37,767 nt of DNA, from positions 1-37,767 of the forward strand of contig JAKLIV010000016.1 of assembly GCA_022709405.1 (NCBI GenBank), read 5' to 3'. The translations under genes and the position numbers were made by a program. The notes beneath the pieces were generated by a model that worked only from the letters and a program-made list of their open reading frames with translations, was not told where the DNA came from and searched no databases. This DNA is from Spirochaetota bacterium (GTDB lineage: Bacteria; Spirochaetota; UBA4802; UBA5550). Positions 1,618-6,630 of the stretch are shown here, one piece after another; positions within the stretch are counted from its first letter, which is position 1; each line of letters opens with the position of its first letter.

Positions 1618-4600
1618 ATGGCATTCTCCCTGGGCGAATATCAAGATATATTTTTGGAAGAGGCTGATGAACAGCTCCAGGAGCTGAACCAGAACCTTCT
1701 TGAGCTGGAAAAGAATCCGGACAATATCGATATAATTAACAATATTTTCCGGGCAGCCCACTCACTGAAAAGTTCGGCCGCTTTCGTTGGACTCAACGAT
1801 TTAAGCGATCTCGCGCATAAGATGGAAAACCTGCTCCAGGGCATACGCGACAGAACCATGGCCGTGACTCCCGAGATCGTGGATGTCATTTTCAAGTGCT
1901 TCGACGAAATTAATTCGGTCATAGAAAGCGTCGCGGCCGGCGAAGAGCCGACCCAGGACCTCTCATGGATAATCGAAAGGATAAAGGCGGTCAGCGAAAA
2001 ATCCGGTTCCGGCGCTGCGCAGAAACAGCAGACCGAGGCCCCGGCCGAGGAGGACTCTTCGGCTGATATCCCGAAAACCGTGATCGGCCAGTCCGAAATT
2101 CAGGCCATTAAGCTGGGACTCGCCGAGGGAAAAAGCTGCAGCGAAATCACCGTTTTCATCGACAAGACCGCCCAGATGAAATGGGTGAAGGCCCAGCTGG
2201 TTCTTAGCAATCTTGCGCGCATCGGGACCATCGTATCCACGATACCCACCGCCCAGAACCTGACCGGCGACGAGATGAGCAATATATTCAAGGTGATAAT
2301 TCTTTCGCTTAAACCGGTTCAGGACATCAAAAACGCGTGCGATATCGACCTGATATACCGGATAGACATCAAGAACATCAGCTTCACGAAGAAGGACAAC
2401 AAATCGGTGCTGAAATTCAGCGGCGGTGAAACTTTTCTTGTAGGAGAGGAACTGAAGCCTGCAGAGGCCGCGCCGCCCAAGAAGGAGCAAAAGGCCGAGG
2501 CTCCCGCATTTTCCCCGTCTTATGCCGAACCGGACGAAGAATCCGACGATGACGACGAACGGGAACATGAGACCGCCCATGCGGGCAGGGCCGCAGAGCA
2601 TGATAAACGCAAAGTGCCTCCACTCAGGACGGTAAAGGTCAGCGTCGACAAACTTGACCAGCTTTTGAACAATGTCGGAGAGCTTGTCATAGCGAACTCG
2701 GGCTTTTACAAGCTCTACGAGGAGATACGCAAGCTCGGGGACGACAAATCCATAACGAACGAGTTCAAGAACCGGATGGAGCAGATGTCGAGGATCGCGA
2801 AGGACCTCCAGACCGGGATAATGAAAACCAGGATGGTGCCGATAGGCCAGGTATTTTCGCGCTTCAACCGGCTCGTGAGGGACCTCACTAAAGAGTTCGG
2901 GAAAAACATCGAGCTCCTCATCAAGGGCGAGGACACCGAGCTTGACAAGAAGGTCATCGACGCGATAGGCGAACCGCTTATGCACCTTATCCGCAATGCG
3001 GTCGACCATGGGATAGAGCCTCTCGAGGACCGTAAAAAGCTCGGTAAATCCGATATCGCCACGGTAAGCCTGAACGCATACCAGGGCGGCAACCAGATAT
3101 TCGTCGAAGTAAGCGACGACGGAAAGGGCCTCAACAGCGATATCATCAAGCGCAAGGCCATAGAAAAGGGTTTTATCACCCCGGAAATGCTCGCCAACAT
3201 GGACACGACGGACATTAACAACCTCATTTTTATCCCCGGTTTTTCTACGGCCACCAAAATTACCGATGTTTCGGGCCGCGGCGTGGGAATGAACGTGGTG
3301 AAAGAAATCGTGAACGAGCTGAACGGCAATGTGACGATTGAAACCGAGCCGGGCATGGGCACCCGCTTCGTGCTCGCGTTCCCGCTGACGCTGGCAATCA
3401 TCCCCGCGATCATGGTCAAGGTCAGAAACGAGATGTACGCGATACCGCTGTCCGATGTCATCGAGACGATCAAGATAGCCGAGTCCGACATAACGACGAT
3501 TGAAGGCCACGAGGTGATCAATCTGCGGGGCGAGATACTCTCGCTCCTGAGGCTCAACGAATTCGTAGGCGTGCCGAGCGCGCTGTTCAAGGAGCAGAAA
3601 ATGCCGGTTGTCGTCGTCGGTTTCGGCAACAGGAAAATCGGTCTCATCGTGGATTTTCTCGAAGGCAAGCAGGAGATCGTAATCAAGTCGCTCGAGCAGA
3701 ACTATATGACCGTCGACGGCCTCGCAGGAGCATCCATCCTCGGCGATGGAAGCATCTGCCTGATACTCGATATTTCTTCGATGATAAACAAGGTCATCAG
3801 CGACCAGGACAAACTGAAGCATTTCGACAAGGATTCCGTGTCGGTGCAGAAGGCTTCGGTCGAGACGATAACCCCGGAAGAGATGCAGACGGAACAACCG
3901 GCTAAACCCAAACCGTCATCCCTTGCTGAAAAACCCTCTGTCCCGGGATCGATTACGATTCTCACCGACGACACCGCAAAAACTCCGGCAGCCCCGGAAC
4001 CTCCGCCTTCAAAACCGCATCCCGCGTACGAGAAGGAGAAGGAGCGTGCGATTGAGTTCGAGGCGGGATCAATGACCGCAAGAAAGGAGGAATCGCTGTA
4101 TCAGAAAACCGCCCAGCCGGCGCCCGTAAAGCCGGCCACGCCAGAACCTTCGATCAAAGAGGAGAGCGCGGCAGGGGCGCCTCCGGCGTCATCTGCTCCA
4201 CCAAAGGATAAGGCCGCCCCGGCAGCGGAGAAACCGGCCGCAGCGCCCGTCGATGAATTCACTCCCGTCGAGGAGGAGTTCCCGGCCGGGACGAAAAGCG
4301 AGGACGAGATCAAACAGCAGGTCAGGGACACGTTAAGCGATTTTCGTCAGGAGCTGAAAGACAGAACCGACATCATCAAGACCGGATCTCCGGTAGACCA
4401 TATGCGCGAGGCCCTCGACCTGTCCAAGGAAGACATCAATGAGTTTCAGGTCATCGCGAACGTCGGCGCGACCAATTCGGCCGAATCCCTTTCAAAGATT
4501 CTGGGAAAGAGGATCGATCTTTCGATACCCGAGGTCACGGTCAAGCCCATCGAGGGCATACCCGATTTCCTTGGAGACATCAACAGCGTCTATATCGGGG

Positions 4601-5019
4601 TGATGCTTCCCATTCTCGGCGACGCCAGGGGCACTCTTCTGTTTATACTCAAAGAGGATGTGGGCTTCTCTCTGATAGACATGCTGTACGGAACCGGTAC
4701 GAGCCAGACCAGGGAAATGGACGAGGACGGTGAATCAGCGCTCAAGGAGATCACGAACATCATCGGCTCTTCGGTGATAAACGTTTTCGCCGAGAAATCC
4801 GGCCTGGTTATCAAGCCGAGCGTGCCGACCATCGTGCACGATTATATGCAGTCGGTCATAGATTCGATCCTCGTGATGCACAACATGACCAACGATTACG
4901 CGATCATCATGGACACCGCTTTCTATTTCGAGGATGACAACATAATCGGCAATCTGCTACTGCTTCCCGAGGCTGAATCGCTCAAAATTCTTGTTTCCCG
5001 TCTGAGGGCGCATGGCTGA
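1618..5019 (+). CDS. cheA: CheA histidine kinase with a C-terminal CheC-like phosphatase domain
   Basis: At 1133 residues this is far longer than the usual 650-750. Domains in order: HPt (1-105, phospho-acceptor His48 in AAHSLKSS), a P2-like CheY-binding domain (about 155-262), an acidic linker, the dimerisation helices (about 337-435), the GHKL ATPase (N-box HLIRNAVDHG around 456-465, DDGKG 500-504, GRGVGM 553-558, GMGTRF 579-584), and the CheW-like P5 domain (about 592-725). A Pro/Ala/Glu-rich linker (about 740-900) follows, and then about 200 residues resembling CheC (about 930-1130). CheC phosphatase sites follow [DS]xxxExxN: the second copy is intact (S1040, E1044, N1047), while the first is degenerate (N941, V945, N948). 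CheA phosphorylates CheY and CheB, and CheC removes phosphate from CheY, so kinase and phosphatase would sit in one chain. A GGAG lies 10 bp before the ATG. The stop overlaps cheB by 8 bp. Kinase identity is certain; CheC activity is inferred. Confidence 0.95.
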   Translation: MAFSLGEYQDIFLEEADEQLQELNQNLLELEKNPDNIDIINNIFRAAHSLKSSAAFVGLNDLSDLAHKMENLLQGIRDRTMAVTPEIVDVIFKCFDEINSVIESVAAGEEPTQDLSWIIERIKAVSEKSGSGAAQKQQTEAPAEEDSSADIPKTVIGQSEIQAIKLGLAEGKSCSEITVFIDKTAQMKWVKAQLVLSNLARIGTIVSTIPTAQNLTGDEMSNIFKVIILSLKPVQDIKNACDIDLIYRIDIKNISFTKKDNKSVLKFSGGETFLVGEELKPAEAAPPKKEQKAEAPAFSPSYAEPDEESDDDDEREHETAHAGRAAEHDKRKVPPLRTVKVSVDKLDQLLNNVGELVIANSGFYKLYEEIRKLGDDKSITNEFKNRMEQMSRIAKDLQTGIMKTRMVPIGQVFSRFNRLVRDLTKEFGKNIELLIKGEDTELDKKVIDAIGEPLMHLIRNAVDHGIEPLEDRKKLGKSDIATVSLNAYQGGNQIFVEVSDDGKGLNSDIIKRKAIEKGFITPEMLANMDTTDINNLIFIPGFSTATKITDVSGRGVGMNVVKEIVNELNGNVTIETEPGMGTRFVLAFPLTLAIIPAIMVKVRNEMYAIPLSDVIETIKIAESDITTIEGHEVINLRGEILSLLRLNEFVGVPSALFKEQKMPVVVVGFGNRKIGLIVDFLEGKQEIVIKSLEQNYMTVDGLAGASILGDGSICLILDISSMINKVISDQDKLKHFDKDSVSVQKASVETITPEEMQTEQPAKPKPSSLAEKPSVPGSITILTDDTAKTPAAPEPPPSKPHPAYEKEKERAIEFEAGSMTARKEESLYQKTAQPAPVKPATPEPSIKEESAAGAPPASSAPPKDKAAPAAEKPAAAPVDEFTPVEEEFPAGTKSEDEIKQQVRDTLSDFRQELKDRTDIIKTGSPVDHMREALDLSKEDINEFQVIANVGATNSAESLSKILGKRIDLSIPEVTVKPIEGIPDFLGDINSVYIGVMLPILGDARGTLLFILKEDVGFSLIDMLYGTGTSQTREMDEDGESALKEITNIIGSSVINVFAEKSGLVIKPSVPTIVHDYMQSVIDSILVMHNMTNDYAIIMDTAFYFEDDNIIGNLLLLPEAESLKILVSRLRAHG

Positions 5020-6085
5020 TAAAATCAAGGTACTGATCGTAGACGATTCGGCCCTTTTCAGGAAAGTGATCAGCGATATCCTCCAGACCGATCCGGCGAT
5101 CGAGATCGTCGGCACCGCAAACAACGGCAAATCCGCGGTCATCAAGGCGCAGCAGCTCAATCCCGATGTCATAACCATGGACATCGAAATGCCCATAATG
5201 GACGGTCTGGCCGCACTCAGGGAAATCATGACGGTCAAGCCCAGGCCGGTCATCATGATGAGCGTGCTGACACAGTACGGGGCCGAAGCCACGTTCAAGG
5301 CCCTGGACATGGGCGCCGTAGATTTTGTTCCGAAACCTTCATCCGTCCTGTCTCTTTCTGCGGAAGAGATCGGCGACCTGCTCATTTCGAAAGTGAAGAA
5401 CGTCGCCGGTTCGCACGTAAGGGTGGGCAAGGAAATCACGCAGGCCGGCGGCGCCGGAATCCAGCCTGCGAAGCAGGAAAAAACCGCCATAACGAAAAGG
5501 TATACCGCGGGGAGCATGAGCTCGAGAGTCGTTGGTATCGGCACCTCGACCGGGGGGCCTTCCGCGCTGCTCAGGGTTTTCCAGGATTTTCCTGAAAATT
5601 TTCCTGCCCCTGTCGTCGTGGTGCAGCATATGCCCGAGGGCTTTACCAGGGCTTTTTCTGAAAGGCTCAATCTGAATTCAACCCTTTCCGTAAAGGAGGC
5701 GGAGGACGGCGACAGGCTTCTGCCGGGACATGCCTTCATCGCGCCGGGCCATTCGCATATGACCGTCGAAGGAAGGGAAGGAAACAGGAAGATCAGGGTG
5801 TTCCAGAGCGAAAAAGTCTCGGGCCACCGGCCTTCGATCGACGTGCTGTTCAATTCCCTTGCCGAGAGTACGGGAAAAGAGTGCGTGAGCGTGATAATGA
5901 CCGGCATGGGCAAGGACGGCGCCGACGGAATGCTGAAAATCCGCCAGAAGGGGGGCTTTACCCTGGCCCAGGACGAAAAGACGTCGGTCGTTTTCGGCAT
6001 GAACAGGGTCGCCGTTAATATCGGCGCAGTACAGGAAATAGTGCCCCTTGAGGACATTACAAAAAAAATTGTTGAACATATTTAA
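5012..6085 (+). CDS. cheB: CheB receptor methylesterase/glutamine deamidase
   Basis: A 357-residue protein with the full CheB layout. The N-terminal receiver domain has Asp11/Asp12, phospho-acceptor Asp57, Ser84 and Lys108. A linker of about 45 residues follows, then the methylesterase domain with the catalytic triad Ser179 (GTSTGGP), His206 (VQHMPEG) and Asp302 (GKDGADG). It removes methyl groups from chemoreceptor glutamates and is activated by CheA-dependent phosphorylation, giving adaptation. The start lies inside the cheA stop region (8-bp overlap), so translation is probably coupled. No cheR or receptor gene is present in the window, so the methylating partner must be elsewhere. Confidence 0.96.
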   Translation: MADKIKVLIVDDSALFRKVISDILQTDPAIEIVGTANNGKSAVIKAQQLNPDVITMDIEMPIMDGLAALREIMTVKPRPVIMMSVLTQYGAEATFKALDMGAVDFVPKPSSVLSLSAEEIGDLLISKVKNVAGSHVRVGKEITQAGGAGIQPAKQEKTAITKRYTAGSMSSRVVGIGTSTGGPSALLRVFQDFPENFPAPVVVVQHMPEGFTRAFSERLNLNSTLSVKEAEDGDRLLPGHAFIAPGHSHMTVEGREGNRKIRVFQSEKVSGHRPSIDVLFNSLAESTGKECVSVIMTGMGKDGADGMLKIRQKGGFTLAQDEKTSVVFGMNRVAVNIGAVQEIVPLEDITKKIVEHI

Positions 6086-6270: not shown

Positions 6271-6630
6271 ATGGCGACCATTTTAATCGTTGATGACGCA
6301 AAATTCATGAGAACGCTGGTTAAAGACGCTCTTGTTCCCGCAGGGCATGAAATAGTCGGCGAAGCTGAAAATGGAAACGAGGCTGTTGAATTATATAAGA
6401 AGCTCAAGCCCGAACTTGTGACCATGGATATCACCATGAGGGAAAAGGACGGCATCGAGGCGGCAGAAGAGATTCTCACCATCGATCCTTCGGCGAAGAT
6501 AATAATGGTTACCGCTCTCGGCCAGGAGAATCTCCTGACCAAGGCCATAAAGCTGGGCGTCAAAGACTTTGTCGTGAAGCCCTTTCCTCCGGAGCGGCTG
6601 CAGAAAGCGGCCGAAAAGGCCCTCGGCTGA
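6271..6630 (+). CDS. cheY: CheY-type single-domain response regulator
   Basis: A 119-residue receiver domain with nothing attached. The acidic pocket is Asp8/Asp9, the phospho-acceptor Asp53 (TMDITM), the switch Thr81 (MVTALGQ) and Lys103 (VVKPF). This is the expected set for CheY, which diffuses from CheA to the flagellar motor. A good ribosome site, GGGAG, lies 8-9 bases before the ATG. It follows cheB after 185 bp, has its own promoter and is closed by a strong terminator. CheY is the likely substrate of the CheC-like domain of the neighbouring CheA. That link is inference. Confidence 0.93.
   Translation: MATILIVDDAKFMRTLVKDALVPAGHEIVGEAENGNEAVELYKKLKPELVTMDITMREKDGIEAAEEILTIDPSAKIIMVTALGQENLLTKAIKLGVKDFVVKPFPPERLQKAAEKALG

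Follow-up and report, generated by a model that had tools for sequence, protein, structure and literature searches.

What does a CheC-type phosphatase domain do at the end of a chemotaxis kinase? The question is raised by cheA::cheC, a gene of a Spirochaetota bacterium (assembly GCA_022709405.1) that lies in the stretch of 37,767 nucleotides analysed here, contig JAKLIV010000016.1, referred to below as the window. The features of the locus are as follows.

1044–1586, + strand: cheW, coupling protein, 5′ of cheA (Pfam CheW, 4.7e-37)
1618–5019, + strand: cheA::cheC, 1133 residues, P1-P2-P3-P4-P5 CheA with a C-terminal CheC domain
1639–1911, + strand: P1/Hpt domain, residues 8–98, phospho-accepting H48 (Pfam Hpt)
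2143–2373, + strand: P2 domain for CheY/CheB docking, residues 176–252 (Pfam)
2626–3792, + strand: P3 dimerisation, P4 ATPase and P5 CheW-like domains, residues 337–725 (Pfam)
3802–4395, + strand: Pro/Ala/Glu/Lys-rich linker, residues 729–926 (composition, model, invariant columns)
4396–5016, + strand: CheC domain, residues 927–1133, two α/β repeats (profiles, PDB sequence match, predicted fold)
4438–4461, + strand: first phosphatase site, degenerate (N941, V945, N948)
4735–4758, + strand: second phosphatase site, intact, S1040-x3-E1044-x2-N1047 (E/N invariance; equivalent to Bacillus CheC E118/N121)
4840–4842, + strand: D1075, equivalent of Bacillus CheC D149, predicted CheD-binding residue (alignment, numbering)
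5012–6085, + strand: cheB, methylesterase with receiver domain (Pfam CheB_methylest, 1.8e-67)
6271–6630, + strand: cheY, presumed substrate of both kinase and phosphatase (Pfam Response_reg, 8.5e-28)

The genes in the window run cheW-cheA::cheC-cheB-cheY, followed by scpA and scpB, and the start of cheB overlaps the end of cheA by 8 bases. Throughout the order to which the bacterium belongs, and in the families coded f11 and f34, the arrangement cheW-cheA::cheC-cheB-cheY is conserved as an operon; cheW is the conserved 5′ neighbour of cheA across the order. The CheY encoded in these operons is 87–95% identical within the order and 76–82% identical in f11 and f34, compared with only about 52–66% for CheA, and appears to be under unusual constraint.

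Domain structure of the fusion protein

Pfam places the five domains of CheA in their canonical order, with Hpt at residues 8–98, P2 at 176–252, H-kinase_dim at 337–404, HATPase_c at 453–591 and CheW at 598–725. This is the full complement of a five-domain CheA, and H48 in P1 is intact. The ATP-binding boxes of P4 are also intact, comprising the N-box LIRNAVDHG at residue 457, the G1 box DDGKG at 500, the F-box GFSTA at 541 and the G2 box GRGVGM at 553. As judged from these domains and motifs, the P1–P5 kinase portion of the fusion is complete.

The C-terminal domain is matched by the Pfam CheC profile (PF04509) at residues 1039–1073 (E 2.7e-9, in two stretches), with 37.3 bits set against a cut-off of 22. 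The CheX profile (PF13690) aligns at residues 994–1075, scoring 24.4 bits against a cut-off of 27 with the whole protein and 28.9 bits in the whole-genome scan. The NCBIfam model of stand-alone Thermotogales CheC, CheC_Thtogales (NF041093), covers residues 935–1129 with an E-value of 1.8e-34; the score of 123 bits falls short of the equivalog cut-off of 250. The nearest sequence in the PDB is that of Thermotoga maritima CheC, 1xkr (E 3e-19). An AlphaFold2 model of residues 908–1133, which rests on a fairly shallow alignment of 27 sequences, has the duplicated helix–strand pattern of CheC (pLDDT 79, pTM 0.74). Foldseek ranks T. maritima CheC first among structures similar to this model, followed by FliY, haloarchaeal CheC, FliM and CheX, and alignment of the model with 1xkr by VIA-align gives a Z of 22.8 and an rmsd of 2.6 for 200 residues. 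We conclude from the profiles and the predicted fold that residues from about 927 to 1133 are a two-repeat CheC homologue. Identification of the domain as CheX was considered and dropped, since the best scores go to two-repeat profiles and folds of CheC. A relic of FliM or FliY would have the fold in common, but no FliN/SpoA domain follows CheC and the E-x2-N motif is strictly kept.

A sequence-only reading of this DNA had placed a CheC-type domain behind a standard P1–P5 CheA, and the Pfam, NCBIfam, PDB and fold comparisons bear this out. In the HMM search which that reading had proposed for the C-terminal domain, the CheC profile was matched above the Pfam cut-off, rather than CheC and CheX both failing to match. 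The start assigned to the region, base 4340, lies one position inside codon 908, and CheC proper begins at about residue 927, near base 4396. The Pro/Ala linker noted there is present as residues 729–926, and its 198 residues include 24 Glu and 22 Lys as well as 28 Pro and 26 Ala.

The model of the full-length protein is weak (pLDDT 58, pTM 0.35), and it is informative only on two parts of the linker. Residues 737–893 are unstructured, with pLDDT under 50, and a helix at about residues 895–921 precedes the CheC domain. This helix (window positions 4297–4380, residues about 894–921) is amphipathic-looking and is conserved within a linker that is otherwise variable, V902, L906, F909 and L913 being invariant in the order. 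It may serve in docking or dimerisation.

Phosphatase sites

The sequence-only reading had described one intact site, S1040-x3-E1044-x2-N1047, and a degenerate first site at N941, V945 and N948, and both the residues and their numbering are exact. S1040, E1044 and N1047 conform to the (D/S)-x3-E-x2-N pattern of the CheC family, and in the alignment E1044 and N1047 coincide with E118 and N121 of the stand-alone, two-site Bacillus CheC. The two-site pattern of the Thermotoga and Bacillus proteins, in which both sites are intact, is not preserved, V945 standing where Bacillus CheC has its first-site glutamate, E17.

Among 22 aligned fused domains, which are 18–73% identical to that of the window, the sole invariant columns are E1044, N1047 and P1070. 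The catalytic Glu and Asn are lost in no complete domain among all the fused domains retrieved, and a first site with both Glu and Asn is absent from every one of these retrieved domains. The decay of the first site takes several forms (V-N, L-N, S-N, E-T and E-R), the Glu being lost and the Asn kept, or the Glu kept and the Asn changed to Thr or Arg. Strict retention of one site together with varied decay of the other would be expected if selection acted on a single catalytic site, and it suggests that one site has been under strong selection and the other free to go.

Distribution and origin of the fusion

Matches to the CheC profile in frames of at least 860 residues were found in 90 of the 296 Spirochaetota genomes sampled, in 18 coded families. 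CheA P3 matches lie on the same contigs and in frames of the same length as the CheC matches, among the matches listed. The fusion is present in nearly all of the order-mates sampled, for the most part in frames of 1020–1190 residues. In the distant cases Pfam confirmed P1–P5 in the same polypeptide, with CheC below its cut-off or missed in several. CheA proteins without CheC occur in f8, f15, f21 and f33, and the two further CheAs encoded by the genome from which the window comes are also of this kind. Those relatives that bear names are unclassified Spirochaetes metagenome-assembled genomes (MAGs). No relative was found in the viral contigs searched, and plasmids yielded only stand-alone CheC/CheX-like matches of at most 27% identity. 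On the strength of the profile matches, the fused architecture is phylum-wide in spirochaetes, and part of it was published in 2023.

The window comes from a draft assembly of 301 contigs, in which a separate cheC could have been joined to cheA by an error of sequencing or assembly. However, the frame runs on unbroken in independently assembled genomes of many genera and families, some of them with a single-digit contig number. Its recurrence in independent genomes already refutes such an artefact, and we consider the probability of one negligible. Together with the two-repeat fold, the presence of the fused frame throughout the order and in other families also sets the CheC match well apart from chance.

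Fifty-three loci in which a single open frame was confirmed to contain both the P4–P5 region and CheC were used for a tree. In the kinase tree, one change divides fused from unfused CheAs, at a branch with a support of 73. This is consistent with a single origin of the fusion and falls short of proving it because the support is modest and some rows are long.

Function of the fused domain

Taking the sequences, the models and the analogy with characterised systems together, we consider that the protein is probably a chemotaxis kinase bound to the array and equipped with a CheY-P phosphatase of its own. Domains P1–P5 would phosphorylate CheY, and CheB, like any CheA. The CheC domain would swing on its disordered tether of some 170 residues beside the P1 and P2 domains that load CheY, and E1044 and N1047 of the single surviving site would reach into the acceptor pocket of CheY and hydrolyse CheY-P. 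Kinase and phosphatase would thereby be present at 1:1 at the receptor array. We infer that the CheC domain is active, that it does its work at the array and that it uses the CheY of the operon as substrate.

There are precedents for the pairing of kinase and phosphatase at the array. Binding of CheZ to CheA in Escherichia coli places a phosphatase at the array, and this alters the response (PMC2673030). CheA3 of Rhodobacter sphaeroides is bifunctional, a CheA protein that dephosphorylates CheY6-P (PMC2924250), and the same dual role of kinase and phosphatase has been proposed for CheA–CheC/CheX fusions of Leptospirae (PMC10782961). On the side of caution, Bacillus subtilis CheC is a weak phosphatase, with about 6% of the activity of FliY, and its CheD binding matters more than its phosphatase activity (PMC3513319). 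The survival of one CheC site out of two also counts against the phosphatase reading. Moreover, the genome of the window has a separate gene for a CheX in which E-x2-N is present, so that the fused CheC need not be the main phosphatase.

In a different account, the fused domain is mainly a dock for CheD. CheY-P bound at the CheC site would raise the affinity for CheD, CheD would leave the receptors, and the result would be a kinase-tethered feedback on receptor adaptation, as with CheC, CheD and CheYp in B. subtilis, with phosphatase activity secondary. Bacillus CheC D149, a residue required for CheD binding and chemotaxis (PMC3513319), has D1075 as its exact counterpart in the alignment, and D1075 does not vary within the order. 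A profile search of the window's genome found no stand-alone CheC. Four CheDs are encoded there, two of them with the M101-F102 signature that is linked to CheC binding, and a CheD with this signature is present in all 14 of the 14 order-mates tested. The aspartate is nevertheless lost in f11 and f34, where its position is taken by Gly, Val, Thr and other residues, whereas the catalytic Glu and Asn are never lost; CheDs with the signature occur in f11 and f34 too, despite the loss of the aspartate. For this reason the signature was no longer used as a marker that distinguishes CheC binders: it is found in almost all fused genomes, with or without D1075, and since it is equally common where D1075 is absent it decides nothing. 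Because the Glu and Asn are universal and the Asp is not, we rank phosphatase activity first and CheD docking second, the latter being possible and somewhat doubtful. A further account makes the domain a catalytically idle platform for binding CheY or CheY-P, either as a second, P2-like dock or as a relic resembling FliM or FliY. The decay of one of the two CheC sites, the fold shared with FliM and the existence of a separate CheX in the genome all fit such a platform, but binding alone would hardly account for the strict conservation of precisely the Glu and Asn of the second site, and we regard an idle domain as improbable.

The two roles might also coexist. In this uncultured order the fused domain could act both as a phosphatase and as a CheC/CheD/CheY-P switch for adaptation that is tethered to the kinase, the tail of the kinase reading its own CheY-P and drawing CheD from neighbouring receptors. 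We think this rather unlikely; if true, it would amount to a covalent feedback loop within one array protein, in genomes without a separate CheC.

In all, the window's genome (G000) has three cheA and four cheD genes. Contig C277 encodes an unfused CheA, and the two cheDs in its vicinity are without the M-F signature; the two CheDs that have it are encoded on contigs C153 and C243.

Returning to the kinase with a built-in phosphatase, production and removal of the signal would, if the domain is active, be locked at 1:1 in one array protein. The fusion would then be a natural, covalent counterpart of the co-localisation of CheA and CheZ that reshapes the dose–response of E. coli. The fusion is predicted to have a sharply defined function, and with known catalytic residues, a widespread architecture and a separable tail it makes the placement of a phosphatase at the array directly testable.

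Relation to known systems

The novelty that the sequence-only reading implied for a kinase–phosphatase fusion does not hold, since fusions of this kind were reported in 2023. For the spirochaete class Leptospirae, Berry, Andrianova and Zhulin described CheAs of the F1 class to which CheC/CheX is fused (PMC10782961), and the protein of the window, with CheC in the same polypeptide as the CheA core domains, belongs with their fusions; both are a spirochaete CheA with CheC/CheX. Their survey drew on RefSeq genomes in MiST and named only Leptospirae (PMC10782961), whereas ours takes in 18 coded family groups, some of which may belong to Leptospirae, and includes an uncultured MAG lineage and families with Pfam scores under the cut-off. 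Given its genome set, the earlier survey probably left out the lineage of the window. What is new here is the breadth of the architecture, the retention of one and the same site, the probable origin of the fusion in a single event, the conservation of the operon and the possible connection to CheD.

The fused domain resembles T. maritima and Bacillus CheC in its fold, its two-repeat layout, its second site (E118/N121) and the D149 position. Those proteins are stand-alone and have both sites intact, whereas the fused domain is tethered to CheA and retains an intact site in the second position only. CheX and FliY belong to the same phosphatase superfamily and share the E-x2-N motif; CheX, however, is a shorter, separate protein, and FliY has a FliN-type C-terminal domain and is located at the motor. 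R. sphaeroides CheA3 differs in that it forms a split kinase together with CheA4 and is not a P1–P5 kinase with CheC; it is not known to have a CheC domain. E. coli CheZ also places a phosphatase beside the kinase at the receptor cluster, but its association with CheA is non-covalent and partial, involving 10–20% of CheZ, and its fold is unrelated (PMC2673030).

Variants of the fused locus

At L095 (DHPI01000018.1) and G042:C34 the CheA–CheC frame is broken within the CheC domain (frames of 861, 310 and 193 residues); the break could be a genuine frameshift or an error of sequencing. Four loci with divergent fused CheAs (L038, L039, L040 and L048) contain a separate short CheX-like frame of 161–203 residues, so a fused phosphatase can have a free one beside it. 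The fused CheA of locus L034 (G197), of 1203 residues, has two P2 domains; the CheA of L050 (G116), of 1202 residues, is similar in length. Duplication of P2 has been reported for CheAs of Borreliales.
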